IMG/VR virus record: IMGVR_UViG_3300006919_007379
Coordinates: 1 to 46,667 of that record
Direction: 5' to 3' (one strand)
From: a virus
Length of the DNA: 46,667 nt
Part shown: positions 3,885 to 27,000 of the stretch, one piece after another
Position numbering within the stretch: the first letter of the stretch is position 1
Layout: every line of letters starts with the position of its first letter
Notes under the pieces: model-generated
What the model saw: the letters and a program-made list of their open reading frames with translations, nothing else
Told to the model about the DNA's origin: nothing
Database searches by the model: none
Made by a program: the position numbers and the translations under genes

Positions 3885-3893
3885 AAAATAAAT

Positions 3894-5157: not shown

Positions 5158-5163
5158 GCGTTT

Positions 5164-5691: not shown

Positions 5692-5725
5692 ATTACACGT
5701 ATGTTGTTTATAATTAAGGAGATTT

Positions 5726-6339: not shown

Positions 6340-6364
6340 CTACTGCAGTTGTTTTGGGTAGTCT
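6336..6364 (+). promoter_or_regulatory. Promoter for the recombination operon
   Basis: TTGACT (6336-6341), 17 bases, TAGTCT (6359-6364). Predicted initiation near 6371, leader of about 24 bases with TTAAGGAG before the ATG at 6395. The TGA stop of the upstream gene is inside the -35 hexamer. Confidence 0.7.
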
Positions 6365-6394
6365 ATGGTTGATACTATTTATTAAGGAGACATA

Positions 6395-8368: not shown

Positions 8369-8817
8369 GTGAGACGTTTGAACTTTTGGTTTCTGAAGAT
8401 GTTAAAAATAAGCTTGCTCAGCACGACAAAGACTTTTTGCGTTTGCCCGAGAACAGGGTGAAGTGGCGAGACTGCTTGTTGACAATTATTGACACGGTGA
8501 CAACTAAGATAGATGGTCTTGAGGAAGAAATCAATCGCTTAAGAAATACCTATTCGGATTTCGTTGTTGACCCTGCTGCAAGTTTGGACGAGCAGCGAGA
8601 TAAGGCTGTTCGCTTTAGGTTTTATGCTGAGAAGCGTTTGGCTGAAGCTGACAGGTTGTTAGCGTTGGGCGCAGATGCTGATCCGTCTCTTTCGTTGGCC
8701 ACGTTTTTGCGAGATGCGATTATGGCGCATCGACAGTGGCATGCAGAAGAAGGTCTTGAGAGCACGGAAGGCGACGATTGCTTGTATGCTGCGCTGGATG
8801 GAGAGTGGAAGTTCTAA
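8365..8817 (+). CDS. Unknown helical protein
   Basis: A 150-residue protein, coupled by ATGA to the nuclease gene. It is predicted helical, with a coiled-coil-like segment IDTVTTKIDGLEEEINRLRNTYSDF near residue 45 and an AVRFRFYAEKRLAEADRLLALG helix near residue 75. No catalytic motif is visible. Its TAA overlaps the ATG of the glycosyltransferase by one base, so it belongs to the same transcription unit. The function is unknown. Confidence 0.6.
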   Translation: MSETFELLVSEDVKNKLAQHDKDFLRLPENRVKWRDCLLTIIDTVTTKIDGLEEEINRLRNTYSDFVVDPAASLDEQRDKAVRFRFYAEKRLAEADRLLALGADADPSLSLATFLRDAIMAHRQWHAEEGLESTEGDDCLYAALDGEWKF

Positions 8818-9911: not shown

Positions 9912-10384
9912 AGCGGGGCAAACCTTTAAAACGCACACCTCTTAAACGTGGGAGTAGTCAGTTAAAGCGCACCCCGTTGGCTCGTAGGTCTAAGAAAACA
10001 AAAGACTTATATGTTGAACGCAGAGAGATTGTGCAAGAGATGCTTGCGGCGCAACCAAATTGTGTAGCGTGTAAACTGTGGGCTGCGTTTGACCTACACA
10101 ACGGAAAGCAGTCAAATATAATTGTTAATGTCAATAAAACTCGTGACATACATGAGCTTGTAAACAGATCGCAAGGCGGATCAATTACAGAGCGGCGAAA
10201 TTTGTTAGCAGTTTGCCGCCCTTGTCATAATAGAATAACAACAGAACCCAAAGATGCTGAACGCTTAGGTTTGCATTTAGAAAGCTGGTGCAATACTAGT
10301 GCAGGGTTCAACGAAGCAGAAAGGCTTAGACATGAATGGTCGTCAGGTACTCCTACAGAACCTTCTTGGTTCCAAAACAATTGA
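9908..10384 (+). CDS. HNH endonuclease
   Basis: A 158-residue protein starting by ATGA overlap. The N-terminus is strongly basic (repeated KRTPLKR and LARRSKK), suited to DNA contact. CVACK (near residue 52) and CRPCHNR (near residue 105) form the zinc pair, and DIHELVNRSQGGSITERRNL gives the HNH beta-beta-alpha motif with its catalytic His. It is a probable DNA-nicking or cleaving enzyme. Small HNH proteins in phages range from homing endonucleases to DNA packaging partners; the distance from the terminase makes packaging less likely. It overlaps the next gene by about 50 bases. Confidence 0.85.
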   Translation: MKRGKPLKRTPLKRGSSQLKRTPLARRSKKTKDLYVERREIVQEMLAAQPNCVACKLWAAFDLHNGKQSNIIVNVNKTRDIHELVNRSQGGSITERRNLLAVCRPCHNRITTEPKDAERLGLHLESWCNTSAGFNEAERLRHEWSSGTPTEPSWFQNN

Positions 10385-11231
10385 ACATCCTGATTTGCTT
10401 GATGAGATCAATTCTTTATCAGGCAATTTTCAAGACGACGAACTTCCGCACCTTGACCGTGAAGAAGTAAACACTGATTTTCTATCAGATTTACAAAAGC
10501 AGTGGCGCAGTGACGGTGTTGTCATTTTAGATTCGTTTTTTCCTGACGACATGATTGAAGCCTATAGGTCTGACTGGATTCAACACAATAGGATCAATCA
10601 TGATCGACCTATGGGTTACCCTGGAGAGTGTGCATATTTTCAAGTTGAAAGCTTGATGCGTCTAGCTACCTACAAGCCGCTCCACGATATTCTCTCGCAT
10701 TTGATCGGTGACGATATGGGAGTTCATTTGAATCTTACCGGCTGGAAGTCAACTCAAAGAAACTGGCATCAAGATGGATACTTAAACCCGGATTCAAACA
10801 AAGATCACTATTTGGCGGTGTGGATAGCGCTGGATGATGTCCATGAAGACTCAGGCCCATTTGAGTTTGTGCGTGGTTCGCATGTGTTACCTATCATTAC
10901 GCAAGACCAAACGCTGGCTCGGCTAGAAGTTAAAGAACGCACTGACCCCATGTGGCCTAAGTATTCTGAACGCTTTCTCACACCCATGTTTGAAGATTTA
11001 CTTGATCGTGGAGAGATGAAGACTGAAAAGTTTTTGGCAAAGAAGGGAGATGTTCTAGTATGGCATGCGAGGTTAATGCACAGAGGTTCGTTGCCTAATA
11101 ATCCTGACTTGTGGCGAGAGACTGCTATCATTCACTATTCAGGTGTGAATCATAGACCCGACATGCCTACCGCTCACCAGTTTGAAGATGGGGGATGGTT
11201 TTTCCCTATCAACCAAAATATTCCTCTTTAG
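10332..11231 (+). CDS. Phytanoyl-CoA dioxygenase (PhyH) family Fe(II)/2-oxoglutarate oxygenase
   Basis: A 299-residue protein of the PhyH family. NWHQDGY provides the facial-triad His146 and Asp148, and LMHRGSLPNN provides the distal His250; the following Arg would bind 2-oxoglutarate. VWIALDDVHEDSGPFEFVRGSH is the classic PhyH core. The ATG at 10332 (preceded by AAAGG) is favoured over a GTG at 10299; both overlap the HNH gene. Members hydroxylate lipids, amino-acid derivatives or other small molecules; some phage 2-oxoglutarate oxygenases act in nucleic acid modification. The substrate is unknown. The neighbouring glycosyltransferase and methyltransferase suggest joint action on a glycan, nucleobase or small metabolite. 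Confidence 0.88.
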   Translation: MNGRQVLLQNLLGSKTIEHPDLLDEINSLSGNFQDDELPHLDREEVNTDFLSDLQKQWRSDGVVILDSFFPDDMIEAYRSDWIQHNRINHDRPMGYPGECAYFQVESLMRLATYKPLHDILSHLIGDDMGVHLNLTGWKSTQRNWHQDGYLNPDSNKDHYLAVWIALDDVHEDSGPFEFVRGSHVLPIITQDQTLARLEVKERTDPMWPKYSERFLTPMFEDLLDRGEMKTEKFLAKKGDVLVWHARLMHRGSLPNNPDLWRETAIIHYSGVNHRPDMPTAHQFEDGGWFFPINQNIPL

Positions 11232-11232
11232 C

Positions 11233-11613
11233 ATGCCTGCAAAGTACGGCCATCAAGATAAAGCCAAAGCCACGAAACTGCATAGTTTGCTAGTACGCAC
11301 TAGAGATAATTTCACTTGTCGATGGTGTGGTGTCTCTAAGAAAGATGGTAAGCAGATTCAGTGTGCACATATTATTTCTCGTAGTGTGTCTGCTACTAGG
11401 ACTGATGAGCGTAATGCCGTTGCTTTGTGTGCGTCGTGTCATTGGAAGCAAAGCAAGAATCCGATACTTTGGTCTAGGTGGATAGAGCAAGAGTTAGGTT
11501 CAGATCATATTGATGATTTGATTGAGCGAGGCGTCCCTGGCGTTGCAGTTGATTGGTCATTGGAGGTTGTTCGTCTACAATCTGCCCTTGACGATTTGGC
11601 TAGTAATGGGTAG
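11233..11613 (+). CDS. HNH endonuclease, NinG-like zinc nuclease
   Basis: A 126-residue protein starting one base after the stop of the PhyH gene. CRWCG and LCASCHWKQSK supply four zinc-binding cysteines, and QCAHIISRSVSATRTDERNAVALC carries the HNH catalytic core. The arrangement C-x-x-C...AH...N...C-x-x-CH resembles NinG-type recombination nucleases and small restriction-like HNH enzymes. It is the second HNH gene within 1.3 kb and is not closely similar to the first. Its TAG stop forms the first three bases of the -10 box of the next promoter. Confidence 0.82.
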   Translation: MPAKYGHQDKAKATKLHSLLVRTRDNFTCRWCGVSKKDGKQIQCAHIISRSVSATRTDERNAVALCASCHWKQSKNPILWSRWIEQELGSDHIDDLIERGVPGVAVDWSLEVVRLQSALDDLASNG

Positions 11614-11616
11614 AAT
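11588..11616 (+). promoter_or_regulatory. Leaderless promoter for the gene at 11623
   Basis: TTGACG (11588-11593), 17 bases, TAGAAT (11611-11616), then 6 bases and the ATG at 11623. The HNH gene stop codon TAG is part of the -10 box. Confidence 0.75.
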
Positions 11617-11622
11617 ACAGTT

Positions 11623-11973
11623 ATGAATTATTCCCGCACGGCACCTATCAGTTCAGTTGAAGTTGAATCTGAGTTGATTCGTCTTACAGCTGATATTGAG
11701 TCTGAGACAGAAGCGTTTGAAACGTTGGCAAAAGATCATGCTGTAAAAGAAGCTGAGTATAAGAAGCAGTGGTTTAAAGAATATCTTGCTGCTGAAGGTG
11801 CTGTAAAGCAAAAAGAAAGCTGGGCCGGGTATAAGACCAGCGAATTGTACTATGACGCACAAGTTGCGGAGGCGCTAGTTAAAGCCAAGCGAGAAAAGTT
11901 ACATTCTTTGAGAACTGCTTGTGACGCTTTGCGGACTATTGCTGCAAATGTAAGATCGCAAGTTAAATTTTAA
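11623..11973 (+). CDS. Unknown coiled-coil protein
   Basis: A 116-residue, highly charged, almost entirely helical protein. The central segment (LAKDHAVKEAEYKKQWFKEYLAAEGAVKQKESW) and the C-terminal EALVKAKREKLHSLRTACDALRTIAANVRSQVKF look like two antiparallel helices. Small helical proteins of this layout are common in actinophage early regions; their function is not known to me. It is predicted to be translated from a leaderless mRNA, and the methyltransferase follows 9 bases later with its own TAAGGAG. Confidence 0.62.
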   Translation: MNYSRTAPISSVEVESELIRLTADIESETEAFETLAKDHAVKEAEYKKQWFKEYLAAEGAVKQKESWAGYKTSELYYDAQVAEALVKAKREKLHSLRTACDALRTIAANVRSQVKF

Positions 11974-11982
11974 GGAGATAAT

Positions 11983-12609
11983 ATGAGTAACTATTTAAAT
12001 GTTGGATGTGGTCATCACTATGCTGAAGGCTGGATAAACACAGACGTTTGGGAAGATGAAAAGACTAAACCAGACGTGCTTGTTAAGCGTGATGAACCGT
12101 ATCCTTTTGAAGATAACTATTTTGATGCTATTTATTTAGGGCACGTGTTAGAACACATATCGTGGACTAAGATTGGAGTCTTCCTAAAGGAAATGGTTCG
12201 TGTGGCTAAGCCTGGAGCACCAGTGTTAGCAGTCGGCCCTGATGTGTATCGAACAATTGAGCGGTGGAAGGATGGTCAAGAGCCATGGGATATGGTGAAG
12301 TCAGTTATGGAGCATCAAGACATTGACGCACAACTGTACCATACTGCCGATGACGGCTCATATGTCGCTTCTCCCCCTCTTACACCTGAATGGTGGGATG
12401 GTGCGGCACATTACTGGAACTGCCACGAAGCACGTTTAGAGCAAGTTATGAAAACACACTTTGGAGACGTTGAGGTGTACTCGTCTCACATTGAAAATGA
12501 TCTGCCCGGTAACCGTGTTAATTGGTTTGATTCACGAAACAACATGCGGTGGCCTGTCACCGGCTACTGGTGGTGGCAGTGTGCAGTCGCAGGTAAGGTG
12601 CACAAATGA
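11983..12609 (+). CDS. SAM-dependent methyltransferase (class I)
   Basis: A 208-residue protein with motif I YLNVGCGHHYAEGWINTDV, the acidic motif-II region and FDAIYLGHVLEHI, followed by LKEMVRVAKPGAPVLAVGPD, which is the usual post-motif layout of type-11/Methyltransf families. The C-terminal half (WWDGAAHYWNCHE..., NWFDSRNNMRWPVTGYWWWQC) is tryptophan-rich and probably binds substrate. These small-molecule or glycan methyltransferases occur beside glycosyltransferases in surface-polymer clusters, so it may act with the gene at 8817. There is no sign of a DNA methylase target domain or NPPY motif. The start has a strong Shine-Dalgarno. Confidence 0.85.
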   Translation: MSNYLNVGCGHHYAEGWINTDVWEDEKTKPDVLVKRDEPYPFEDNYFDAIYLGHVLEHISWTKIGVFLKEMVRVAKPGAPVLAVGPDVYRTIERWKDGQEPWDMVKSVMEHQDIDAQLYHTADDGSYVASPPLTPEWWDGAAHYWNCHEARLEQVMKTHFGDVEVYSSHIENDLPGNRVNWFDSRNNMRWPVTGYWWWQCAVAGKVHK

Positions 12610-13382
12610 TTCACAACATTGCAGATAATATTCAAAGCCTAGCAGTAGACATTGAGTTGTTGCGTCCACTGGAGAACAACGCACGCCGAGGCAATGTTGA
12701 TGCAATCATGGCGTCGTATAACAAGTTTGGTCAGGTTAAGCCCATTGTGGCTGTAAGTGATGCTGATGGTTCGTTGACAGTCATTGCGGGTAACCATCAG
12801 CTAGAAGCAGCTAAGCAGTTGGGATGGCAGCAGATTGCTGTGTCTATTGTTGATCTAGACAACGATGATGCGTTAGCGTTTGCATTGGCAGACAACCGCA
12901 TTTCTGACTTGGGCACAACTGACAATGAACTTCTGTACGAGTTGCTGACTGATGTCATTGGTGATGACGAGAGCTTTTTTGAAGTGCTAGGTTGGGATGA
13001 CTTTTCAGTGGCCGCAATTGAGAACACAGTTATTACAGCCGAGTTGGCTAACGATAGCAATGCTGGATGGACTGCCCCTGAAATCGTTTTGAATGATGTG
13101 GGTGTAGACTCACCTCCTCCTGCAGCAACACCTCAGCCAACTGGCTCTGGAGATCAGCCTACACCAAGCACTTCCACGATTGTTACTCAGGGTAGTACTA
13201 GTGCTGGTGTTTCTGGAGTCAACAATGCTTCAATTCAGTTTACGCTAGTGTTTGATAGTGCTGAACAGCAGTCAAAGTGGTATGCGTTCATTAAGTGGCT
13301 TAGAGAAAGCCCGGTCTATGATGGCGAAACGACTTCAGAACGACTGTTTGATTTTATTGCTCAGCATTCAGAGATGGGTTAA
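12606..13382 (+). CDS. ParB/Srx-fold protein with Pro/Thr-rich linker
   Basis: A 258-residue protein, coupled by ATGA overlap. The N-terminal 125 residues are a ParB N-terminal-like domain: ELLRPLENNARRGN, KFGQVKPIVAV, VIAGNHQLEAAKQLGW and AFALADNRISDLG match the ParB/sulfiredoxin fold including its nucleotide-binding G-N-H-Q loop. A Pro/Thr/Ser-rich linker (about residues 160-195) follows, and the C-terminal domain (IQFTLVFDSAEQQSKWYAFIKWLRESP) is a small alpha/beta module. ParB-like proteins of this kind can bind or hydrolyse CTP/ATP or act as nucleases. It is two bases upstream of a PAPS reductase-like gene, an arrangement reminiscent of the IbrB-IbrA pair of Escherichia coli. Confidence 0.82.
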   Translation: MIHNIADNIQSLAVDIELLRPLENNARRGNVDAIMASYNKFGQVKPIVAVSDADGSLTVIAGNHQLEAAKQLGWQQIAVSIVDLDNDDALAFALADNRISDLGTTDNELLYELLTDVIGDDESFFEVLGWDDFSVAAIENTVITAELANDSNAGWTAPEIVLNDVGVDSPPPAATPQPTGSGDQPTPSTSTIVTQGSTSAGVSGVNNASIQFTLVFDSAEQQSKWYAFIKWLRESPVYDGETTSERLFDFIAQHSEMG

Positions 13383-13384
13383 GT

Positions 13385-14557
13385 ATGGCTAGACGCAGAA
13401 TGTTTCTAGACATAAATTGTGTCGATGCGGCTCGTGAGCGTATCCGTCACGTGTATGACACATTTGATACTGTGTGCATTCAGTTTAGTGGCGGCAAAGA
13501 CTCCACGGCATGTCTTTATCTGGCGAAGGAAGTTCATGAAGAGCGTGGCCTCGGTCCGGTTAAAGTCATTTTCCGTGATGAAGAAATGCTTTCTCCGGCT
13601 GTAGCAGAGTATGTGCAGCGGGTCAGCGAGTATGACTGGGTGGACATGGAGTGGTATTGCCTTCCTGTGGGGCAGGAAGTTTGGGTGCTTGGCGCACGGG
13701 AGTATGTCTTATTGTGGTCTCCGAAGCGAGCAGCTGAAGGAAGACTGTTTAGACCTTTCCCTGATAATGCTATTAGGGCGGAGCACTTTGGTATTGACCC
13801 CGGTAAGCCTATTCCTCGCAAGATTGACGAGTACACGATGCAGGGCAAGAAGGGGCGTACAGCGTTTATTACAGGTGTTCGTGCAAATGAATCAATGATT
13901 CGTTACCGTACAGTTACTCAGAAACTCCATGAGAACTATATTAACCGTCCGTTCAAATTGTCAAAATCAATCCCGTTGCGGTTTGCCAAGATTATTTATG
14001 ACTGGACTTCTGATGATGTTTTGAAGTTCATCTCAGAAGAACATAACGCTCCGTACTGTGCTTACTACGACTATGCTGCTATGAGTGGCGCAAATCAAAG
14101 AGTTGGTATTCCTCTTCACTCTGTTGCGTCTAGACGGTTGATTGATGTTCTGCGTACTGAACCTGAATTCTACGACGAGCTATATCGGTGCTTTCCTCAA
14201 ATTGAAGCACAACGGCAGTTGTGGTCAGAGTTTGATATTGAGAAAGTTATCGACATGTATGAGTCAATGAGTTGGACTGGAGTGAAGTATTGCATTGAGG
14301 ACAACATTTTGACTCCGGGTATGCGCAAAGCCGCAATGGTTTATAGTAACGATTTCAAGAAGAAGCACGTCAAAGACCCGTATGGGTATCCGATTGATCA
14401 TTTAATTCGCACGCTGCTGCTTAATGAGTTTATTGGGTCGCCTAGCCCGGTCGGTCCTAAAACAAAAGCACATAATAAACGGAAAGCTTTGCTAGAGCAA
14501 GAGGACCAGATTATGATGGATGCGAACAGCCTTGACATGCAAGATGATAGAAGGTAG
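13385..14557 (+). CDS. PAPS reductase-like PP-loop protein (IbrA/DndC-related superfamily)
   Basis: A 390-residue protein of the adenine nucleotide alpha-hydrolase superfamily. The PP-loop SGGKDS is at residues 35-40 in the context QFSGGKDSTACLYLAKEV. Further signatures are VKVIFRDEEM, the ITGVRANESMIRYRT segment that resembles the PAPS-binding R-x-x-E region, and DWTSDDVLKFISEEHNAPYC. It lacks the C-terminal ECGLH motif of assimilatory CysH, so classical sulfite formation is doubtful. Relatives include IbrA and the DndC protein of DNA phosphorothioation. Flanking ParB-like genes on both sides suggest a three-gene functional unit; a sulfur-transfer or nucleotide-activation role is inferred. 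Confidence 0.85.
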   Translation: MARRRMFLDINCVDAARERIRHVYDTFDTVCIQFSGGKDSTACLYLAKEVHEERGLGPVKVIFRDEEMLSPAVAEYVQRVSEYDWVDMEWYCLPVGQEVWVLGAREYVLLWSPKRAAEGRLFRPFPDNAIRAEHFGIDPGKPIPRKIDEYTMQGKKGRTAFITGVRANESMIRYRTVTQKLHENYINRPFKLSKSIPLRFAKIIYDWTSDDVLKFISEEHNAPYCAYYDYAAMSGANQRVGIPLHSVASRRLIDVLRTEPEFYDELYRCFPQIEAQRQLWSEFDIEKVIDMYESMSWTGVKYCIEDNILTPGMRKAAMVYSNDFKKKHVKDPYGYPIDHLIRTLLLNEFIGSPSPVGPKTKAHNKRKALLEQEDQIMMDANSLDMQDDRR

Positions 14558-15427: not shown

Positions 15428-16373
15428 TTATTCTTGGCGTTCACTTTCCACGCCTATTAATAGTAACTCCACGGAAGAGGCTTTGCGTCTCAGCAAGTCT
15501 AACTACAATGTCGTTCTAAACCCTATTTATGTTTGGGATCAGTTTCAGAATAAGTATGTTGAAGTTGAAGATCGCTTCTGTACTGGTAGACACGTTACAG
15601 ACGCATTAGCAGATTCTGGCGTGCGTCAGGAAAACTGGGAAGTTGTTAAAGACCGTTATGTTATTGTGCCCAACTCAGACATTATGGAGCGGGCACATTC
15701 AATTGTTGATGCTTTTAACGGCGCTGCACGCTTAGACAGTTGCGGCAATCTTGATGATGGTAGAAAGTTCTTTGTGGCAATCTTTACTGGAACGCTGGAG
15801 ATTATAGGTTCTGGGGATAAAGACTTAGTTGACACTTATGTTATCGCCATGACTTCCCACGATGGTTCTGTGCCGGTTTGTTATTACAATCTTGATGTTC
15901 GTAGACGCAACAATTCGGTTTATCGGTTTACTGATGAAAGCGCTGACTTTTGTATCCGTAAACGTCATACTCCCAATCATGCTGATAGGGATAGTGAGGT
16001 GACTGAAGTTTTGACGATGCGCCAAGCGTGGAGTACGTCTTTCAAGGCGACACTTCAGAAGTTGCTTTCGCCCGTGTCTGAGTTTCAGTTTGAAAGCGTT
16101 TTGCATTCTCAGTGGAACCCTAACACGGCGTCTTCTAAAAACAAGCGGGAGCACGCCGAAAACGTCATTGACACGATCAACTCTTTGTACCGCTCAGACT
16201 ACAACTTCGGCATGTTTGGTCATAGTAAGTGGGCAGCGTTCAATTCCATCTGTGAGTACATTGATTTCCATAGGGACATCCCTGGTTTGGAAGCGGCTCA
16301 GCACTCTTTAGAGATTGACAACTTTAGTCATCGTTTAAAGGTGTCGTTGTACAACCAGCTCTGTTCCGTTTAA
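15417..16373 (+). CDS. DUF932-family protein
   Basis: A 318-residue protein resembling DUF932 phage/plasmid proteins: a YVIVPNSDIMERAHSIVDAF helix, RLDSCGNLDDGRKFFVAIF, then MTSHDGSVPV and FCIRKRHTPNHADR, which are the conserved blocks of that family. Its molecular function is unknown, though it is often encoded near replication and recombination genes. The ATG at 15417 is preferred over 15387 since it follows CTGGAG and reduces overlap with mazG. It converges with the terminase gene: the palindrome TTAA at 16370-16373 gives both genes their TAA stop, and no terminator is visible between them. Confidence 0.82.
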   Translation: MTDNYSWRSLSTPINSNSTEEALRLSKSNYNVVLNPIYVWDQFQNKYVEVEDRFCTGRHVTDALADSGVRQENWEVVKDRYVIVPNSDIMERAHSIVDAFNGAARLDSCGNLDDGRKFFVAIFTGTLEIIGSGDKDLVDTYVIAMTSHDGSVPVCYYNLDVRRRNNSVYRFTDESADFCIRKRHTPNHADRDSEVTEVLTMRQAWSTSFKATLQKLLSPVSEFQFESVLHSQWNPNTASSKNKREHAENVIDTINSLYRSDYNFGMFGHSKWAAFNSICEYIDFHRDIPGLEAAQHSLEIDNFSHRLKVSLYNQLCSV

Positions 16374-17686
16374 ATAATTATTTCAATCTTACGCCGTAGT
16401 CCCATGCCTAATCCGGCACAGGTGTTGAAGGCATGAACTGCGGCATCGACTTGGTCATCGTGAACTCGGGCTTCAGGGAAAGACGAAAGCTCGTCAATAA
16501 AGTCGCTGTTCCAGTCAGCCCGGACAAGCCTTACGTTTCCGTTAGCTACTGCTGCGGCAAAAGGTTTGGCTCTAGTTACTTTATCACCGGTTGCTCTTTG
16601 ACCTTTGAAGTCGTATCCGGGTAGAACATAACGGGCGTACTGATCAATAAGGTTTTTGCCTGCTGACCCCGGCTCTTGCTCCATTTGAATTGGAACTTCC
16701 GGCCCATCTTCAATTGCGGTGTCTCGAACAAATTTCTCTACACGGTCGCCCTTGGCCCTGATTCTTCGAACATCCAAAATATAAAACACACCGTTTTCAA
16801 ACGCCGCCAAGCATCCTACTGTCCAGTCAGGATCAGGGTTGCTTGCAGTAGGCTCCGTACCTGCCAAGTCCCAGAAGCGCACAATCTCTGTTTCTTTGCT
16901 GAAAGAAGGGATTTCTGTAAATTCAATGACTTCCAAATTGTTTCGGTCAAACATTGAGCCGAGTGTGGTTGCCCACCAGTCACCAAATTCAAGACGGTTT
17001 CTTTCAATAGGGTCTAGCTCTTGAAGCATGGCCCGGTAAGAGTCAGGATCAATTCCGGGGTTGTCGGTGAGCATGGAAGGAATAAAGATTCTTCCGCTCT
17101 TTTCACCTTCTACGAGGAATCGTTGTCGGACCCAGTTGGGGGCGGGGTTTGTAGCACATCTCATTCGTAGTGGCACTTCTGAAAGAGGTCCTGTGGCGGG
17201 ACGACGTAAACGAGAGAACATGTATCGGTAGTCAGACTCTCGAATTTCTGTAACCTCGTCCATGCCAATGAATTGGAATTCCGAACCTTTGTATCTAAGG
17301 TAGTCGTTTACGTTGTTTAGGTACCCGAAGGTGATTCTAGCGCCGGATGGAAATGTTGCGGTGTACTGGTTGGCGTTCCAATGAACGTCGTCGTATTGCA
17401 TAATCCAGTCTCGGAAACGGTCCATGAGAGCGCCGGGTAGTGCAAGGTCAGCGTATGTACGCCTGAATAGGATTGCACTGTAACCTGGGACATCTACGTA
17501 CTGTAAGGCAGCCATGATTAGGGCGGAAGACTTACCACCGCCTGCTGCACCACCAAACATGACTTCTTGTCCCACGGATTTTAGGAATACTTTCTGAGTT
17601 AGTGAGGGTTCTTCAACCCAGTATTCTGAACGCCGTGGCTCTAGATACTCTCTAATTTTTTCCCAATCCTGAGTTTGCACTGACAT
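16370..17686 (-). CDS. terL: Terminase large subunit
   Basis: A 438-residue packaging motor. The ATPase domain has Walker A GGAAGGGKSS at residues 45-54, FRRTYADL, Walker B FIGMDEVTE and the coupling region RLRRPA; the nuclease domain has FWDLAGTEP (first Asp), EQEPGSAGK (Glu) and HDDQVDAAVHAF (last Asp), forming the RNase H-like metal site. The ATG at 17686 with AGGAGA about 9 bases upstream is preferred to the GTG at 17713. The gene is on the strand opposite to the portal and all other head genes, which is unusual. No small terminase subunit was recognised. Confidence 0.96.
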   Translation of the reverse strand: MSVQTQDWEKIREYLEPRRSEYWVEEPSLTQKVFLKSVGQEVMFGGAAGGGKSSALIMAALQYVDVPGYSAILFRRTYADLALPGALMDRFRDWIMQYDDVHWNANQYTATFPSGARITFGYLNNVNDYLRYKGSEFQFIGMDEVTEIRESDYRYMFSRLRRPATGPLSEVPLRMRCATNPAPNWVRQRFLVEGEKSGRIFIPSMLTDNPGIDPDSYRAMLQELDPIERNRLEFGDWWATTLGSMFDRNNLEVIEFTEIPSFSKETEIVRFWDLAGTEPTASNPDPDWTVGCLAAFENGVFYILDVRRIRAKGDRVEKFVRDTAIEDGPEVPIQMEQEPGSAGKNLIDQYARYVLPGYDFKGQRATGDKVTRAKPFAAAVANGNVRLVRADWNSDFIDELSSFPEARVHDDQVDAAVHAFNTCAGLGMGLRRKIEIII

Positions 17687-17692
17687 ATCTGC

Positions 17693-17721
17693 TTGTCTCC
17701 TAGAGGTTTTCACGGTAAAGT
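17693..17721 (+). promoter_or_regulatory. Leaderless promoter for the small membrane protein, overlapping the terminase leader
   Basis: TTGTCT (17693-17698), 17 bases, TAAAGT (17716-17721), then 6 bases and the ATG at 17728. On the minus strand TATACT at 17724-17719 is a candidate -10 box for terL, without a clear -35, so the two opposite promoters would overlap. Confidence 0.7.
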
Positions 17722-17727: not shown

Positions 17728-17886
17728 ATGAAGAAATTTCTGTCCCGTTCTGTAGCTGCTCATGTTTGTATGGGCGCTGGCATTCTTTTTATCGGCTTTG
17801 GTATTAGTATACTAAGTTTGGGATGGGGGCTGGCAAGTGCTGGCCTTGCTTGTGGAATTTACGGGTACTTATTAGGGGCTGAATAA
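17728..17886 (+). CDS. 52-residue membrane protein before the portal gene
   Basis: A small protein starting MKKFLSRSVAAHV, with a basic N-terminus and two hydrophobic glycine-rich segments (about residues 14-31 and 33-49), so two membrane helices joined by a tight turn. It has no Shine-Dalgarno; a promoter -10 box ends 6 bases upstream. Its TAA overlaps the ATG of the portal gene by one base (TAATG), so portal translation is probably coupled to it. Its function is unknown; it is the first gene of the head operon. Confidence 0.7.
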   Translation: MKKFLSRSVAAHVCMGAGILFIGFGISILSLGWGLASAGLACGIYGYLLGAE

Positions 17887-19526
17887 TGGCGTGGAACTCT
17901 AGTTCAAATAAATCACTTCAATCAGGGGTTACAGAAAAAGCGGCACAGATTGCTGTGGGCGCTCCTGTTGCGTACAGTCCAACCATTCAGAACAATAATC
18001 GTGGCTATCACGATGGCTGGGATATTGTTAAGACTTATAAAGAAGCTGTTGCTAAGGTAACTTGGGTTTATCGCTCAATTGACGTTATTGCGTCTAACCA
18101 AGCTAGTCTTCCCATGATTCTTCGTAAGGACAATAATCCTTTTGGGGAGATTGTAACCGATAACCCTATTCTGAAGATTTTCAACAACACGGCGAACGTT
18201 GGTGAGAATGCTTGGGCATTTCGTTATAGAATGAGTTCGCAGTTGATGATGAGCACGAGAGGAGTGTTTGTTGAGGTTGTGCGATCTAGAGATGGTACGC
18301 CTATTGCTATGCATTTGTTGCCGCCTCAGAATACTTCTCCAATTCCTGATGTAAAGAACTTTGTTAAGGGGTTTGAAGTTCAGATCAATGCTATGGAGAA
18401 GCGGATCATTAAGCCTAAAGATGTGATTTGGATTCGCAGACCTCATCCGCTTGATCCATATTTGTCAATGACTCCGATGGAGGCTTCTGGTATTGCGATT
18501 GAGCAAGAGACTTTGGCTAAGCTGTACAATAGAAACTTCTTGATTAATGATGGGCGCCCCGGTGGATTGCTTGTGTTGCGTAGTGAGATTTCTGACGAAG
18601 ATAAAGATGAGTTGCGGTCTCGTTTCCGTGGGAATATTGGTAGAGCTGGTGCGGTCGGTGTAATTTCTGCAGATGATGGCGCTGATTTCGTGGATACTGC
18701 TGCTAGTCCTCGTGATGCTGCGTATCAGCAGATGCGAACAATTACGAAGGAAGAAATTTTAGCGGCATTTGGTGTACCAGAGTCGATTATTGGTAACTCT
18801 GCTAATCGAACGTTTTCTAATGCGATGGAGGAGGGCAAAGTCTTCTGGATGGAGACTATGACTCCTCATTTGAATCTTATTGCTCGTTCGTTTGACGCTA
18901 TTGATGAGTCATACTTTGTAGACTTTGATACGTCTGATGTTCCGATTTTGATTCTGTCGAAGCAGGAGCGAGAGAAGCACTACTTGTCAGAGTTCCAGCA
19001 GGGGCTGATTAGTACTAATGAGTATAGAGAGGCGGCAGCCCGTAAGAAGGTTGAGTCTGAGCTTGCTGATTCACTGCTGGCTAATCCCAACCTTACTCCT
19101 GTTGCTAATACTGAAAAGCCTATGCAGCCTGAAGGACAGCAGGATCAAGGCATGGGTGCTGATGCTGGTATGGCTGGCATGGGTGCTGATGCTGGTATGG
19201 CTGGCATGGGTGGCATGGGCGGTATGGACCCAATGGCTGGTGGTGCTCCTGCTGCTCCCGCTCCTCCTGATGGTGGGTTTGTTGAAGCTGGTGTTCCTCT
19301 TCAGCAGCAAGCTACCGCCGCTCTACAGCAGCAGGTCACAGAGTTTAGCCCAGAACAAGGCGCTTTTGTTCCGATGGGTGACGTTCAAGGAACCCAGCAG
19401 ATTGAAGCCCCCGCAAGTGCAGTTCCTAGCGAACTAGACGATGAGGAGGACGAGGAGGGCCAGGAGGGTGAGAAGAGTCTCCCTTTAGAACGAAGACTGG
19501 CGCTGCTGGAGGACCTTCTCTCTTAA
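17886..19526 (+). CDS. Portal protein (HK97-type)
   Basis: A 546-residue portal protein, the dodecameric ring at the capsid vertex. Visible family segments are VTWVYRSIDVIASNQASLPMIL near residue 57, a strand-rich clip region with MHLLPPQNTSPIPD and KDVIWIRRPHPLDPYLSMTPMEASG, and AAFGVPESIIGNSANRTFSNAMEEGKVFW near residue 293. After about residue 410 the chain becomes low-complexity: Met/Gly-rich tandem repeats, an Ala/Pro run, Gln-rich and acidic stretches. The last 25 residues contain an in-frame C CCT TTA slippery heptamer, so a fraction of ribosomes should continue into the MuF frame and make a portal-MuF fusion. Confidence 0.93.
   Translation: MAWNSSSNKSLQSGVTEKAAQIAVGAPVAYSPTIQNNNRGYHDGWDIVKTYKEAVAKVTWVYRSIDVIASNQASLPMILRKDNNPFGEIVTDNPILKIFNNTANVGENAWAFRYRMSSQLMMSTRGVFVEVVRSRDGTPIAMHLLPPQNTSPIPDVKNFVKGFEVQINAMEKRIIKPKDVIWIRRPHPLDPYLSMTPMEASGIAIEQETLAKLYNRNFLINDGRPGGLLVLRSEISDEDKDELRSRFRGNIGRAGAVGVISADDGADFVDTAASPRDAAYQQMRTITKEEILAAFGVPESIIGNSANRTFSNAMEEGKVFWMETMTPHLNLIARSFDAIDESYFVDFDTSDVPILILSKQEREKHYLSEFQQGLISTNEYREAAARKKVESELADSLLANPNLTPVANTEKPMQPEGQQDQGMGADAGMAGMGADAGMAGMGGMGGMDPMAGGAPAAPAPPDGGFVEAGVPLQQQATAALQQQVTEFSPEQGAFVPMGDVQGTQQIEAPASAVPSELDDEEDEEGQEGEKSLPLERRLALLEDLLS
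19152..19205 (+). repeat. Two tandem 27-base repeats in the portal gene
   Basis: Two adjacent identical 27-base units (19152-19178 and 19179-19205) encode MGADAGMAG twice, followed by degenerate MGG units. It is a low-complexity C-terminal repeat that may vary by slippage. Confidence 0.85.
19481..19487 (+). promoter_or_regulatory. Predicted -1 programmed frameshift site (C CCT TTA)
   Basis: The heptamer CCCTTTA fits X XXY YYZ exactly in the portal reading frame (codons CTC CCT TTA GAA). The -1 frame has a stop at 19469-19471, just upstream of the site, and is then open to 20302, with no ATG, GTG or TTG before 19709. A possible downstream hairpin CTTCC/GGAAG lies at 19531-19544, rather far away, so the stimulator is unclear. 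Confidence 0.75.
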
Positions 19527-20302
19527 ACGCTTCCGACTGGAAGACTAAAACTTTATACACAGTCAGCTCTTTAGAAGACAGACTAAACTCAGAACTTGAT
19601 AAAGTTTTTGACGATCAAGAGCAGGCTGTTCTAGATGAGTTAGATAGCGATGCTGTACAAGCTGCAATTGCTAGTGGCTCTGTTGCTTTAATTCTGTCTG
19701 CAATTCCTGTGGCGTTACTTACACCGTCAACTGTTGCGTTGTTAGCTTCTATGGCAGCCACGTATCGTAAAGCGGTTGAAGACAATATTGAAGAAGGATA
19801 TGGCGCTCCTGTCTCTGAGCAAGTGTCAGAAGCAGCGACATCTGAACATTTAGCAGCAGTCAATAATTTTAACACAACCACGCAAGAAGAAGTTGCGGCT
19901 GCTTTAGTTACTGCTGCACAATTGACTGATGAGAATGATGGCGACGTTGATATCGCTTTAAAGATTGCTTTAGCCTATTCTTTGATAAAAGCTATTTTCA
20001 ATAAACTCCGAACAAAGCGTCGAAAGTTGATTGTTGACGCTGCTGTTTTGGGTCCGTACAATCAAGGCTTGTATGATTCTGCAGTTGCGGAAGAGCAAAG
20101 AACGGGTCAAATTGTACAAAAACAGTGGGTGTCTTTAATGGATGAGCGGGTTAGGTCTGCTCATAGGCAGTTACATGGTGAAAAAGTTGCTGTTGGTACG
20201 CCGTTTTTTGTGAATGGTGTATCTATTCGATTCCCGAAAGACCCTTTGGCTCCGCCCGGTTTGACGATCAATTGTCGTTGTATTCTGCGCTTCAGCAGGT
20301 AG
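19487..20302 (+). CDS. MuF-like minor head protein, read by -1 frameshift from portal
   Basis: The frame adds 271 residues after the slip site. The C-terminal part, QWVSLMDERVRSAHRQLHGEKV followed by PLAPPGLTINCRCILRF, is the conserved end of the Mu gpF/SPP1 gp7 minor head protein domain, in which a C-R-C or C-x-C pair is typical. The upstream part (LYTVSSLEDRLNSELDKVFDDQEQAVLDEL) is helical and looks genuinely coding although no initiation codon precedes it; the first possible start is the GTG at 19709 within a hydrophobic stretch. I therefore annotate it as the extension of the portal protein. MuF domains sit at the portal and may be ejected with DNA. Confidence 0.8.
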   Translation, partial: RTKTGAAGGPSLLNASDWKTKTLYTVSSLEDRLNSELDKVFDDQEQAVLDELDSDAVQAAIASGSVALILSAIPVALLTPSTVALLASMAATYRKAVEDNIEEGYGAPVSEQVSEAATSEHLAAVNNFNTTTQEEVAAALVTAAQLTDENDGDVDIALKIALAYSLIKAIFNKLRTKRRKLIVDAAVLGPYNQGLYDSAVAEEQRTGQIVQKQWVSLMDERVRSAHRQLHGEKVAVGTPFFVNGVSIRFPKDPLAPPGLTINCRCILRFSR

Positions 20303-20326
20303 TTTATATATAAGTATTTATATATA
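20303..20326 (+). repeat. Direct repeat of TTTATATATA before the protease gene
   Basis: TTTATATATA occurs at 20303-20312 and 20317-20326, 14 bases apart, immediately after the MuF stop. A GC-rich GGGCGCCC palindrome follows at 20337-20344 and TACAAT at 20355-20360. The cluster probably forms the regulatory region of the protease gene; no good -35 box was found. Confidence 0.5.
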
Positions 20327-20393: not shown

Positions 20394-21956
20394 ATGACTG
20401 TTGCAGAACTAAATGACACCGAGCACGACACCCAATTCAAGGCTATTTCAGGCCAGATTGGTATCGACAAGGCTCAAGGCATCGTTGAAGCGTTTGTGTC
20501 AGGTATTGGAAATAAAGATTCTGTTGGCGACATCGTTATCGCAGGTGCGTTTAACGGGTCTCTGAAGCGACGCAAACCACGGGTTGTTTGGGGCCACGAT
20601 TGGAATCAGCCAATTGGTAAAGTTCTAGAGATTTACGAAGTCCCTAAGACTGATCCACGCCTGCCTGAAAAGATGAAGCAGGCTGGAGTTGGTGGCTTGT
20701 TTGCTAAGGTTCAGTTCAACCTTAATACTGAACGTGGTCGTGAAGCGTTTGCAAATGTTGCATTTTACGGCAATGAGCAAGAGTGGTCAATTGGTTACAA
20801 GACAATTACTGCAGATTTTGATGCAGTTAAGCAAGCTAACATTCTCAAAGAGGTAGAGTTGTACGAAATTTCTCCTGTTCTGCATGGAGCGAATCAGTTG
20901 ACCGCAACGATTTCTGTTAAAGATGATGAAAAGGGCAAGGCATCCAAAGGCTATTACGTTGAGGATGAAGATAAAGACGGCCCTGCTAGTACTATGGATG
21001 CAATGTCAGAGCGTTTGGGGCGAATGCTGTCTCAGGCTTTGCGTAAGCCCGTTCAGATTATTGAAATGGATGGAAATAACGTTGTATTCCAAACAGGCGA
21101 AGACATGACATGGAGCGCCACGATTTCTGTTGAAAATGGTCAGGTTCAGGTTGGTCGGCCTACACGTGTAAAGCCCACAACAAGCTACACCCCGGTAGGG
21201 GAGGAGGCACCCCCTTCAATGATGATTAAAGATACTGACGAAAAGAATGCTGAAGAGCCTGCGGGCGTGAGAGATGCTGATGATGAGCAGGGTTCGTGGG
21301 CTACCCCGGATATTGCTCTTGCTTGGGCTAAGACCTTTGGTTGTTCTGGTTATCACTCACATGGCGGCGGTTACATGCCGTGTGAAACGCATGAAGAGTA
21401 TTTAGAAGCACTTAAAAAGTTTGATGGTAACGCTAACATCAACTCGCATAACAACTACCTTGCTGGGGTTGAGGTTGAAGAAGCAAAGGCTGCAGGGTGT
21501 TCTTGTGGGACCGAAGAAAAGGGCCATATGATGCCTAGCAAGAAGCCTGAGTATCTTAAGGACCCCATGGCTCTGCTACTTATGGCTTACAATGAGATGC
21601 TGAAGCTTCGTGGTGCCGGTGAGTTGCGTGAGGCCACGTTGACTTTGATCGGTGCGGTCGAAGACTTCTTGACTGAAGCCCCGATGTCTCGTCCTGGCGA
21701 GCAGGGCGAGAAGGTGACTTCAGGCTTTGTTGTCCATGTCAAGTGTTCAGAGAAAGAAGCACTGGCTGTTAACGGCGCTATGTCTGGCCTGCCTGTGTTC
21801 TCGTTTAAGTCAGAAGATGGCGTTGATGTCCACTTTACGACAGAACTTGCAGAAGAAGAACTGATGGAAAAAGTCGCTGTGTCGCTTGCGGGATTAGCGT
21901 TTGAGCCTGAGGTAACAGTAACAAGACCGATTGACACCACCGAGGGTGTTCAGTAA
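20394..21956 (+). CDS. Prohead protease (S78/HK97 type) with C-terminal extension
   Basis: A 520-residue protein. The first 180 residues are a serine prohead protease: VVWGHDWNQPIGK holds the catalytic His68, NEQEWSIGYKT holds Ser132, and EVELYEISPVLHGANQ the third conserved region. It would cut scaffold and capsid N-terminal domains during maturation. The following 340 residues are not protease: an acidic linker, a Cys/His motif FGCSGYHSHGGGYMPCETHEEY near residue 320, CSCGTEEKGH, and a C-terminal alpha/beta part. GAGGAGA lies 4 bases before the ATG. The extension shares its Cys-Gly-His...Pro-Cys motif with two downstream virion proteins. Confidence 0.9.
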   Translation: MTVAELNDTEHDTQFKAISGQIGIDKAQGIVEAFVSGIGNKDSVGDIVIAGAFNGSLKRRKPRVVWGHDWNQPIGKVLEIYEVPKTDPRLPEKMKQAGVGGLFAKVQFNLNTERGREAFANVAFYGNEQEWSIGYKTITADFDAVKQANILKEVELYEISPVLHGANQLTATISVKDDEKGKASKGYYVEDEDKDGPASTMDAMSERLGRMLSQALRKPVQIIEMDGNNVVFQTGEDMTWSATISVENGQVQVGRPTRVKPTTSYTPVGEEAPPSMMIKDTDEKNAEEPAGVRDADDEQGSWATPDIALAWAKTFGCSGYHSHGGGYMPCETHEEYLEALKKFDGNANINSHNNYLAGVEVEEAKAAGCSCGTEEKGHMMPSKKPEYLKDPMALLLMAYNEMLKLRGAGELREATLTLIGAVEDFLTEAPMSRPGEQGEKVTSGFVVHVKCSEKEALAVNGAMSGLPVFSFKSEDGVDVHFTTELAEEELMEKVAVSLAGLAFEPEVTVTRPIDTTEGVQ

Positions 21957-21986: not shown

Positions 21987-23813
21987 ATGAGTGATAACCT
22001 TAATGAAGACCTTCAGAAGATGGAAGCTTTGAGCGAAGTCATCGATTCTGGGGAAAGCATGTCTGCCGCAGAGAAGGCTATGCATGATATGAAGAAAAAC
22101 GCACCGTCTGTGTTTATGACTGACATTCGTTTCAAGGAGTCAATGGAAGTTGGCGATTTGCTTAGCGAAGAAGCTTTCATGTCTCTTGATGCTGATGAGC
22201 AGAAGGGCTATGAGATGGTTCAGGTCATGGACGAGAAGAGCAAGGAGCCTATGGGCTGGGTGTTCCGTTTTAAGTCTGATGAAGATGATGAGGACGATGC
22301 TGAAGACATTGTTGAAGAGGTCGTTGAAGATGCGGTTGAAGAATCCGTGGAAGAAAAGTCAGATGCTGATCCTATCTCAGAAAAGGCCGCTGCACTCATG
22401 TCGCAGATGCGTGCCCCTGATGATGAAAAGCCTTCAATGTTCCTTACCGATAGTCGTTTCAAGGAAATGATGGACGCTGGCGAGCTTGTTTCATCAGAAG
22501 ACTATGACGTTTTAGACGAAGACGCTAAAGAAGCATTTGAGGCTGTTGATGTTTATGAAGAGGGCACCGGCAAGGGTTATGGTCGGCGCTATCGTCGTCG
22601 CAGCCCCCTTGAGTTGACAGCAATGCGTAAGGGTCAGGGTATGGATGAAAAGGCTGAAGACGGCATGGAAGACATGTTTGATTCGGAAGCTGAAGCTCTT
22701 GAGCGTGCGGCGGCGCTAGGTTGCCAGGGCGTTCATCGTGCAGGTGAAAAGTACATGCCTTGTGCAACCCACGATGATTGGATGAAGCTTAGCAAGCCTG
22801 CTGAGGCACCGGCTCCTACTCCGGCCCCTGCCCCCGCTCCGGCTGCGCCTGCTCCTGCTCCTGCTCCTGCTCCGGCTGCTGCCCCTGGTGGCATGATGAA
22901 GTCAGAAGAAGAGTTCCTCTGTGGTTTCCAGCGCAAGTCAGTTGAGCAGCCTTGCGAGTTCTGCACAGGCGGCTGTGCTCCTGAAGATGGCCTTCCAGGG
23001 CTTGCTGACATTGAAAGTCAGGTCAAGTCAGCCTACGAGGGTTCTGAAATTATTGGCTCAGGCTACTCAGCCGGTGACGACGTATTCGTTGTCGATGTCA
23101 AGCGGGCTGACGGTTCCTTTATTGAAGTGTTCCTGACCGGCGACGGCGAGGAGCTTGGTTGGCTGCGTTTGGATCAGAGCGCTATTGAAGGCAAGTCCGC
23201 TGAAGCTATTGAGATTGTTTCTAAGTCTGATGCTGAGGCTACGGCACGTGACGCTATTAGCGAGATGGGAATCAAGGCTGAGGTCATGAGCGTTACTGTT
23301 GACATCTTCGCAGATGAAGATGTGTACGTGGTTGAGCTTGATGCTGAAGAGAAGAGCTACGACGTGTTCGTTGCTGCTGATGGCAAGGTGCTCGGCTATG
23401 ATGAGTACGATTATGACGCTGAGGGTTCATATGAGCTTTCTGAAGAGGAAGAGATTAAGGCTATTGAGGCTGAACTTGAGATCAAGCGGATGTACTCTCG
23501 TGAGCAGCGTGAGGCGATGGCTGAGTCCGGTGAGGCTCTGCCTGATGGTTCGTTCCCGATTGCTGATGAGGCTGACCTAAGCAACGCTATCCAAGCGGTG
23601 GGTCGTGCGGCTGATCAAGAAGCTGCTAAGGCGCACATTATGAAGCGTGCTAAGGAACTGAAGTTGGAAGATATGATTCCGGCTGATTTTGCTAGCGGCG
23701 GCTCGCCTGCTCCTGCAGCCCCTGATGCTGATGCTGAAGAGAAGGTGCTAGACGAAGATATTCTTAAGGCGATGGAAGAGTTCAACAGCCTGTTGGAAGA
23801 CGATTCTATCTGA
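21987..23813 (+). CDS. Acidic multidomain virion-assembly protein (scaffold-like, DUF6582-containing)
   Basis: A 608-residue, strongly acidic protein. Residues about 40-100 and 147-207 are an internal duplication (PSVFMTDIRFKESMEVGDLL versus PSMFLTDSRFKEMMDAGELV). Then come a Cys/His motif LGCQGVHRAGEKYMPCATH, an Ala-Pro linker (near residues 272-300), a four-cysteine segment CGFQRKSVEQPCEFCTGGC, two PepSY-like repeats (DDVFVVDVKRADGSFIEVF and EDVYVVELDAEEKSYDVFV) and a DUF6582-type segment ALPDGSFPIADEADLSNAIQAVGRA. Its position between protease and capsid genes and its acidity fit a scaffold or capsid-associated role, but the domain collection is unusual for a pure scaffold. Confidence 0.75.
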   Translation: MSDNLNEDLQKMEALSEVIDSGESMSAAEKAMHDMKKNAPSVFMTDIRFKESMEVGDLLSEEAFMSLDADEQKGYEMVQVMDEKSKEPMGWVFRFKSDEDDEDDAEDIVEEVVEDAVEESVEEKSDADPISEKAAALMSQMRAPDDEKPSMFLTDSRFKEMMDAGELVSSEDYDVLDEDAKEAFEAVDVYEEGTGKGYGRRYRRRSPLELTAMRKGQGMDEKAEDGMEDMFDSEAEALERAAALGCQGVHRAGEKYMPCATHDDWMKLSKPAEAPAPTPAPAPAPAAPAPAPAPAPAAAPGGMMKSEEEFLCGFQRKSVEQPCEFCTGGCAPEDGLPGLADIESQVKSAYEGSEIIGSGYSAGDDVFVVDVKRADGSFIEVFLTGDGEELGWLRLDQSAIEGKSAEAIEIVSKSDAEATARDAISEMGIKAEVMSVTVDIFADEDVYVVELDAEEKSYDVFVAADGKVLGYDEYDYDAEGSYELSEEEEIKAIEAELEIKRMYSREQREAMAESGEALPDGSFPIADEADLSNAIQAVGRAADQEAAKAHIMKRAKELKLEDMIPADFASGGSPAPAAPDADAEEKVLDEDILKAMEEFNSLLEDDSI

Positions 23814-23834: not shown

Positions 23835-24014
23835 ATGCAGCCTAGCCAAGTAACGCAAAGGATTGCTGCTGCTAATCAAACTTTAGCAGAATTAGGAGCA
23901 TATGCTGTTCTTGGCGACCACGTTAGAGATAACGAGGTAGAATACCTGTACAGAGATGGATTAGAGCATGTCTTTAGTCCCTTAGAAACCGCTGGGGATT
24001 CGGATGACGATTGA
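23835..24014 (+). CDS. 59-residue protein overlapping the giant gene
   Basis: A short protein (MQPSQVTQRIAAANQTLAEL at the start, DSDDD at the end) with TAGGAGG 8 bases before its ATG. It has an N-terminal helix and a beta-hairpin-like second half, and no recognised family. It overlaps the start of the 3051-residue gene by 11 bases, which suggests coupling that sets the translation level of the giant protein. Confidence 0.6.
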   Translation: MQPSQVTQRIAAANQTLAELGAYAVLGDHVRDNEVEYLYRDGLEHVFSPLETAGDSDDD

Positions 24015-27000
24015 GTTTAAAGCACCTGAGATTGGGCCAAACGCCGATGCTTTGACCAGCCTTACACGAGGGCGTGGTCCTCGTCGTGGCAATCTTGAGG
24101 ACCTTCTCAAGTATTGGCGTCCGATTATGAAGAAGCCGGGTGGCTTCCGTCGTTGTGTTGTTATCCTTATGGATAAGCCGCAGTTTGGTGGTAAGCCTCA
24201 GCGTATTTGTGCTTGGCTTCACCACGAGTTGACTGGCAAGTGGCCCAACGAGGGCAAGGGTAAGCGTGGTAGAGGTAAGGGTAAGCGGAAGCGTCGTGGT
24301 CGTTCGGTGACTCGTCGTGTTCGGTCTGCGGGCAAGAAGTCTTTGACTGGTATTTCACCGTTAACTGAAGTTACTTCGTTGCGTATGACGATTCGTGAGT
24401 CTCGTGAGTTTGGTGGTATTCTTGTTCAGCCTATTGCTGGTCGTAAGAATGCTGTGGAGATGAAGGCTGCGATGTTCTTGCAGCATTCGGAGCGGCTGCC
24501 TTTGTTTGCTGGTAACGAGGTTAAGCGTGTTGGTGTGTTTGGTTCTTCTAGCCGTTTGGGTCAGGCTGCGCAGGCTGCGGGCAGTATTATTCTTCCGGGC
24601 GATTTGTCTGATATTCGTAGCCCTATCCGTTCTCAGATTTATGAAACGCTGACTCCTGGCGTTCCGAATATTCCTAATGCTCGTGGTGGTCGTATCCTGC
24701 GAAGCAGAGGTCGTGGTGCTCGTAATAAGTTCCGTTGTCCTCCAGGCTTTGAGAAGGGTGGTACGTTCACTAACTCCGAGTTTTCGACGTGTGGTGCCCA
24801 GATTTTGGGGATTGCTACTTCGGGTCCGGGTTCGCCCACCCCCGAGGCAAACAATAGACTTTCTCGTTTGGCGAACACTGCAGGTTTAGTTAATGAAATT
24901 GGTGATCTTCGCAACAACGACAGTGCTGTAGATATTATTCGTGCAGCTCAGATTCCGGCTGCCCCGAAGAAAGGTAGCCCGACCCGGGCAGAAACATCTA
25001 TTGATTTGGTGTTGACACGTTATGAGCAAGAAGATTTCCCAACTAAAGTTGTTCGCCGTGATGGTGTCATTTTAGAACCTGTTGTTTCAGTTGAAGCGCT
25101 TGGTAAACTTAACGAGTTTGATGACATGGCTGACGGTAGCCTTATTGAAAGATATGAGGCAGGTCAGATTGGTGCTTCTACTGTTCCTGCGTTTAGCACG
25201 AATTTGCGTAACGTGTTTGTTTCTATCCCTGATGCTGGCGCTGTTAAAATCAGTCGTGTTGGGGGAGAAATTTCTGATGCGGAACGGGCAGGGCTTCTTC
25301 GTTCGTTTGCTACTGGCATAAGCCGAAGCGCTGATTTGCCTGATCCTTCTGCTGCTGTTCGTGCGTGGGCTGACGGTTCTGATGGCCGGTTTACTGTTGA
25401 GTTTGGTGAAGTGACCGAGACCGGCTTTGCGATCGCTGAGGGCAAGAACGATTTGATTAAGGTCTCTACGGCTGGCGGCAAGACTGAAACAGTGCCTCGT
25501 TGGGTTTATGAAACGTTCTTGTCTCGTTCTGCGCCACGTCGTGCAAAAGATGCTCCGATTTATGAGATTGTTGCTGAGGAAGGTGCGGAAGAGAAGAGTG
25601 GTTCACCGTTTGCTTTCTCTCAGAAGTCAGCACCGGTTGCTACTGACTTTACTGATGTGCTTGATGCAAAGTACTATCACATGTCTGTCAATAGTAAGAT
25701 TGAAGCGTTTACGTCTTTGACTGAGATTGATTTTAAGGCTCCTAGAGGTCGTGGTTTGGGTCGCCGGATCGGGCGTGGTGGTCGTGCTGTTGGTGGCCGT
25801 AGCCGTGCGGTGTTTGATGGTAACTTGGGTAGATATCGTTGTCCTCCTGGCACTCGTTATGGCGGTCGGTTCTCTAATCAGTTTGCTAGCAACTGTGGTT
25901 ATTCTCTTCCACGTCAGATTGTTAATAACCTTGTTGATTTGGGTACTCGTCTTGAAGACGCTATGGAGAGGCGGCGTCGTCGCCGGTTGGACACGAGTCC
26001 GGGTGATGGTCGAAGCAATTTGAAGCCTGAGACGGCGGAGAAGCTTGATGATGCTATTCGTACTCTTGATGCTGCTACTGGTGATTTGGGTAGGGTGTTT
26101 GAGAAGACTGAGGGTGTTGAAGGCGGTAAGTTGGGTCGCACGCTTGGTGAGGCTCAGCGTGATGTTGATTTGACTCCTGAAGAGCGTCAGTTGCTTGAGG
26201 GTGAGGCTTTGGAGGCGGCGCTTAAGAATCTTCGTGATGTTATGAATGATCAGGATTTGGCTAACGCTAATTTGGATGAGATTCGTAAGGCGTATAAGGC
26301 TGTTGAGAAGGCTGCGAATACTGAGGCTGGTCGCTTGTCTGATAATCCTCCTCGTACTCCTGAGCAGCGGAGTCGGCAGGATGGTATTCTTGGTTTCTTG
26401 AGAGAGTTGATTTTGCGTTTCTTGGGTCTTTGGAATGAAGACTTTGAGCGTGAGCGTGCTGGTCGTCGTGATCGGGATGTTGTTCCGGGTGATGAGGGTG
26501 TGCCGGGTGGCCCTGGTGGTGGCGGTCCTCGTCGTCCTAGAGCGCCGGGTGTGCCGGGTGATGGTCCTGATAGTCGTGCTCCTGATGGTCGTACTCCTGA
26601 TGGCCGCACTCCTGATCCTGATGATATTCCAGAGGCGCTTCAGCCCAAACCTGTTGGGGAGATGACTGATGGAGAGCTAGTTAGAGAATTCTTCAGATTA
26701 CGGCATGGTAGCCCGGGGCTTCTCATTCCGGGTCAGCGTGACGAAGAAATGGATAGACGTAGGCTTCGTGAAATCAACGCTGAGCTTCGCCGTAGAAATA
26801 TTGACCCGTATAATCCTCAGACAATAACTTATACCCCTGCTGATGATGCTGACGATCCTGAAAAAATAATGGACGAGTTTGCACGAATTCTTCAAGAGTT
26901 CCGTGAGCGGGCTGAAGAATACAGAGTTTCTGGTGGCGGCAGAACCCTAGATTTTGTTGAGTCACTAGATGATGACGATTTAGATAAATACATCAATGCG

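Follow-up and report, generated by a model that had tools for sequence, protein, structure and literature searches.

A putative programmed -1 ribosomal frameshift joining portal protein and MuF in uncultured tailed phages of one family

How is a MuF domain translated from a reading frame that offers no start codon where the domain begins? The question arises in a 46,667-nucleotide stretch of viral DNA (IMG/VR record IMGVR_UViG_3300006919_007379, positions 1 to 46,667; hereafter the window). A portal gene encoding 546 amino acids occupies positions 17886-19526 and ends in TAA (19524-19526); this gene and all features of the portal-MuF junction are on the plus strand. The -1 frame is closed by a TGA at 19469-19471, 9 bases 5' of the slippery site described next, and then remains open (19472-20302) until the MuF stop codon TAG at 20300-20302. 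In portal phase, positions 19481-19487 read C CCT TTA, a heptamer of the X XXY YYZ type, and after a shift the -1 frame would be read from AGA at 19487. An earlier note had interpreted this arrangement as a programmed -1 frameshift fusing portal to MuF. Its heptamer, its open -1 frame and its statement that this frame contains no ATG, GTG or TTG before 19709 all stood up when sequence and frames were rechecked; it had missed an upstream Shine-Dalgarno-like sequence and the existence of 'portal-MuF fusion' as an annotated protein type. The comparison with relatives reported here strongly supports a programmed -1 ribosomal frameshift, to which we assign a probability of about 0.93; every prediction open to a comparative check was borne out. 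The shift has not been shown biochemically, and there are no protein data.

The portal protein is of the HK97 type and matches PF04860 with 168.5 bits (gathering cut-off, 39.1). Few solved portals match its profile, the best being the HK97-family structures 6te8 and 6tba. The MuF-like domain previously noticed in the -1 frame was recovered by PF04233 (Phage_Mu_F / SPP1 gp7) with 41.5 bits against a gathering cut-off of 29.6, and the frame also matches PHROG head-morphogenesis families. An AlphaFold2 model of the -1 product is helical and confident (pLDDT 81), and its predicted fold resembles predicted viral MuF/minor capsid proteins; neither a sequence nor a fold match to MuF was found in the PDB. 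The model begins with a disordered linker (residues 1-19) and a confident helix (residues 20-57), both encoded 5' of the GTG at 19709. Terminase and prohead protease genes flank portal and MuF. A tail assembly chaperone frameshift, expected in the genes just 5' of the tape measure, was ruled out, the genes being portal and MuF in a terminase/protease neighbourhood.

The large terminase gene (16370-17713) lies directly 5' of the portal gene on the opposite strand. The C-terminal region of the portal (19150-19230) contains GADAGMAGM repeats, which are also present in loci L006, L009 and L010; contigs that are about 95% identical differ in portal length, with the frame maintained. Immediately 3' of MuF, at 20303-20326, there is an AT-rich inverted pair, TTTATATATAAGTATTTATATATA. 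The window contains two copies of TATATAARTA, both within 20303-20326 (0.07 occurrences expected), and in L072 and L081 a sequence similar to the pair, TATATAAATA, follows the portal stop. We take the pair to resemble a promoter motif (T4-late-like TATAAATA). DUF3721 (PF12518) is present in both the protease gene (20394-21956) and the next gene (21987-23813). An open reading frame of 3051 amino acids without a Pfam match (24004-33159) is located in the head module, with the protease-region genes on one side and the major capsid gene on the other. The regions 1781-14557 and 37955-39976 contain genes for RecA, Rad52-like, Cas4/PD-(D/E)XK nuclease, PhyH dioxygenase, PAPS-reductase-like and ribonucleotide reductase proteins. 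No tRNA genes were found in the window. The hosts of the nearest annotated relatives are Actinobacteria, which gives no host for the window phage itself.

Relatives were collected by searches with both proteins and their alignments, which gave 350 portal-matching loci, or 110 after removal of redundancy; a DNA-level search of phage records did not find near relatives. MuF is in the -1 frame in 40 of the 110 non-redundant loci (portal, 65-100% identical; MuF, 36-100%). A further 57 loci, including four annotated phages, encode portal and MuF as a single ORF. MuF occupies the +1 frame in five loci; those of them that were read have an ATG overlapping the stop of the portal gene. In seven well-covered loci MuF was not matched. 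Six of them group in a single clade with portals ending in PSESAL or alike, and a profile search of six of the contigs (40-67 kb, perhaps fragments) found no MuF elsewhere. Two of the single-ORF fusion contigs, L214 and L215, are in a Gammaproteobacteria MAG and are probably misbinned virus contigs. A sequencing error restoring a single frame, which would have refuted the frameshift, can be dismissed because the region is identical in four other contigs and about 95% identical in four more, and the relation between the frames is preserved in dozens of diverged contigs.

The earliest canonical start in the MuF frame of the window is the GTG at 19709-19711, 74 codons 3' of the shift site. It lies past six nearly invariant MuF residues, and we judged that it is not the start of MuF. 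In 38 of 39 aligned rows, the first canonical start of this frame follows at least one nearly invariant MuF residue, at scattered positions. A canonical start of any kind preceded by a 4-base Shine-Dalgarno sequence occurs within the first 90 codons in only three of 40 rows, and not in the window. From the portal stop to the first start, differences between relatives in the -1 frame amount to 0.44, 0.33 and 0.57 at codon positions 1, 2 and 3, a coding pattern that agrees with the impression, gained previously from the window alone, that the codons before the first start look protein-coding. By these comparative measures, the MuF frame is coding and has no start of its own.

CCCTTTA occurs four times in the window, compared with 4.2 occurrences expected from shuffled sequence. 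The heptamer count is thus at chance level; a single sequence therefore proves little, and comparison must decide. All 40 non-redundant loci with the -1 layout have CCCTTT in portal phase, 9 bases past a -1 stop, with T, A or C as the seventh base. This invariance, together with the absence of a conserved MuF start codon, is what the earlier note had proposed looking for in homologous phages. In these alignments the above-chance signal is the in-phase conservation among diverged relatives. CCCTTT forms the end of a conserved 23-base element, GAGGGTRRGAAGAGYNNCCCTTT (19464-19486), which is nearly invariant in 34 distinct contexts; third positions 5' of it and almost all of the sequence 3' of it vary. 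On the portal tree (see below) 16 of its 23 positions are unchanged, CCCTTT shows no change at all, and most flanking positions change 4-12 times.

The codons of the portal gene point in the same direction. The residue is conserved in 267 portal columns, of which only four use a single codon, all of them inside the element: E (GAG), G (GGT), K (AAG) and P (CCT), for which the codon usage of these genes predicts 43%, 45%, 51% and 35%, respectively. The median share of the top codon over the columns is 0.54. The codon that ends in the first C of the heptamer encodes L, A, V, D, H or R, with C as its third base in 34 of 34 contexts; on the tree, its first two bases changed eight times and the heptamer's first C never. 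Exact matches to the element in viral_contigs number 60, all in contigs of this phage family. Fifty-nine have a portal match, and the remaining one, L213, shares a contig with a frameshift member, L126. These patterns indicate selection on the slippery site that exceeds the needs of protein coding.

The sequence GGAGG at 19463-19467, 13 bases 5' of the slippery site, may act as an internal Shine-Dalgarno-like stimulator. A GGAGG-like sequence with this fixed 13-base spacer and strong anti-Shine-Dalgarno pairing (mean, -8.8 kcal/mol) is present in all 38 rows. A tail-gene frameshift with an internal GAGG has been proposed in corynephage phi16 (PMC5506516). Downstream RNA structure was neither conserved nor unusually stable (mean z of -0.1 to -0.4; pseudoknots are outside the model) and, with no enrichment of structure, was rejected as a general stimulator. 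Because no downstream structure stands out, frameshift efficiency is perhaps low, or set by the Shine-Dalgarno sequence and the site alone. Downstream structure is common at known -1 sites but not present at all of them, and a review notes tailed-phage sites without stimulators (PMC5009743). The -1 stop is TGA in 21 of the 34 contexts, TAG in ten and TAA in three, and never the sense codon TGG. Its spelling changed three times on the tree, which suggests that a stop is kept by selection, perhaps keeping stray ribosomes away from the MuF frame, although three changes are few.

When 69 portal cores were placed on a maximum-likelihood tree, the loci with the frameshift fell into one clade (support, 100/100), out of which three nested exits lead: to a clade in which MuF has its own ATG, to the MuF-less clade, and to a single in-frame fusion (L068). 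The slippery site vanishes precisely where MuF acquires its own ATG, is lost, or fuses in frame. The existence of homologues with their own MuF start and no slippery site (L055, L060 and L141) had been named in advance as a refutation. They do exist, but they are reciprocal rather than contradictory, because they form one nested clade from which the whole element is also gone. The nearest relatives beyond the frameshift clade have portal and MuF in one ORF, and the outgroup is entirely fused; the sister group and annotated phages both have single-ORF fusions, matching the expectation that portal and MuF are separate or fused in other phages. Because the outgroup is all fused, the fused state is inferred to be ancestral and the frameshift derived. 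This direction of change rests on the outgroup, the state changes alone giving none. Fusion was thus probably ancestral, with a probable single origin of the frameshift as a means of fusing only a fraction of the molecules. PHROG 2662 is a single family that spans portal (26-499) and MuF (491-707) end to end, and the predicted frameshift fusions have a median length of 761 amino acids, compared with 736 for the single-ORF fusions.

Could MuF instead be a separate gene with GGAGG as its ribosome-binding site, translated by ribosomes that reinitiate at the portal stop or use an internal or non-canonical start? A Shine-Dalgarno-like sequence near the end of a gene often serves the next gene (PMC5009743), and in the L055/L060/L141 clade an ATG does overlap the portal stop. 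However, where a start codon served by GGAGG would have to lie, the MuF frame has stop-GAA-GAG-YNN-CCC-TTT, which contains neither a start nor a near-cognate codon. The canonical starts lie 27-213 bases 3' of the portal stop, in unrelated places and mostly past nearly invariant MuF residues; the clade with its own ATG lacks the element; and a separate start leaves the invariance of CCCTTT unexplained. We consider a separate MuF gene very unlikely.

The nucleotide conservation above coding need would also be expected if the 23 bases were a DNA or RNA regulatory site at the gene end, for protein binding or RNA processing, with portal and MuF split by an old frameshift mutation. Such a site is highly improbable: an in-phase X XXY YYZ motif, a Shine-Dalgarno sequence at stimulating distance, a wrong-frame stop and a startless MuF kept over wide divergence need recoding, and the element is lost exactly when MuF acquires a start, disappears or fuses. 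Transcriptional slippage would give the same two products as ribosomal frameshifting. We give it hardly any credence, as the runs in CCCTTT are only three bases long (four T at most), compared with about nine A or T in known bacterial cases (PMC5009743), and the fixed Shine-Dalgarno sequence and strict codon phase indicate ribosomes.

Under the favoured reading, a programmed -1 ribosomal frameshift, the locus would most likely yield two products: portal alone (546 amino acids) and a portal-MuF fusion of about 805 amino acids (534 zero-frame and 271 -1-frame codons). The majority of ribosomes would follow the portal frame through a short zero-frame tail (19488-19526) to the TAA ending at 19526; in relatives, the distance from the slip to the end of this stop is 13-49 bases. 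Some ribosomes would pause at C CCT TTA, aided by pairing of GGAGG with the 3' end of 16S rRNA. The P-site tRNA-Pro and the A-site tRNA would re-pair onto CCC TTT, and translation would continue in the -1 frame, placing MuF at the C-terminus of the portal. The mixture of products could then assemble into a portal ring with MuF on only some subunits, and hence few MuF copies inside the head. The shift event, its efficiency and the make-up of the ring are all inferred, as is the idea that a shift of moderate efficiency gives few tethered MuF domains per 12-subunit ring. We lean towards a role of the shift in MuF dosage. It is a more tentative proposal, on which we are somewhat short of evenly divided, that the cassette of internal Shine-Dalgarno sequence, wrong-frame stop and CCCTTT sets the number of MuF-bearing subunits, the stop ensuring that MuF is made only via the shift and is always tethered to portal. 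The tether is not essential family-wide, because in one nested clade MuF starts at an ATG of its own and in another it is missing. SPP1 gp7 is likewise dispensable for assembly.

The subunits of a phage portal ring are treated as identical. If our reading is true, mixed-subunit rings are predicted, and tethering MuF to a fraction of the portal subunits would offer a simple genetic route to the asymmetric placement of few MuF copies. Portal-MuF dosage would be set genetically, as a parameter of head assembly or of DNA ejection; its role is testable by comparison, since the family contains natural alternatives (single-ORF fusion, own start, loss). Standard gene callers would report a truncated MuF and miss the fusion. 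The suspicion that such a frameshift was undescribed has so far held: we found no report in the literature searched, which covered few subscription journals, and the word 'portal' was not found in the part of a 2016 recoding review that was available. Portal-MuF fusions, as an annotated protein type, and frameshifting in phage head and tail genes were already known separately; a frameshift-made portal-MuF fusion, in a family of uncultured tailed phages, appears to be new.

Several known systems share parts of this arrangement. In lambda G-GT and its relatives, a -1 shift near the gene end gives a minority fusion with the next frame (PMC5009743), but the tail chaperone involves other genes and another function, whereas the window case concerns portal and MuF in the head module. 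In T7/T3 gene 10, phage A2, Listeria PSA/A118 and SPP1 gp17.1, recoding gives two structural proteins at a set ratio (PMC5009743; PMC6316719); the protein extended in these cases is a major capsid or major tail protein rather than a portal that receives MuF. In E. coli dnaX and many IS elements, an internal Shine-Dalgarno sequence 5' of the slippery heptamer stimulates -1 shifting (PMC5009743); dnaX has an additional downstream stem-loop, none being detectable at the portal-MuF site. SPP1 gp7 (MuF) binds the portal protein gp6 inside the head, is present in about three copies per virion and aids infection (PMC6316719, PMC4493119). Like MuF of the window phage, it is encoded 3' of portal, but it is made as a separate protein, without a frameshift, from a gene of its own. 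The closest counterparts are the single-ORF portal-MuF proteins of Streptomyces phage Gilgamesh (gp46), Brevibacterium phage Cantare (gp7) and Gordonia phages GMA6 and DalanDe, with further examples in Microbacterium EA3/EA5/EA8/EB phages (PMC7302621). They have the same domains in the same order, with a homologous portal (37-41% identical) and MuF, but their frame is continuous and lacks the frameshift element, so that all of their portal subunits would bear MuF.
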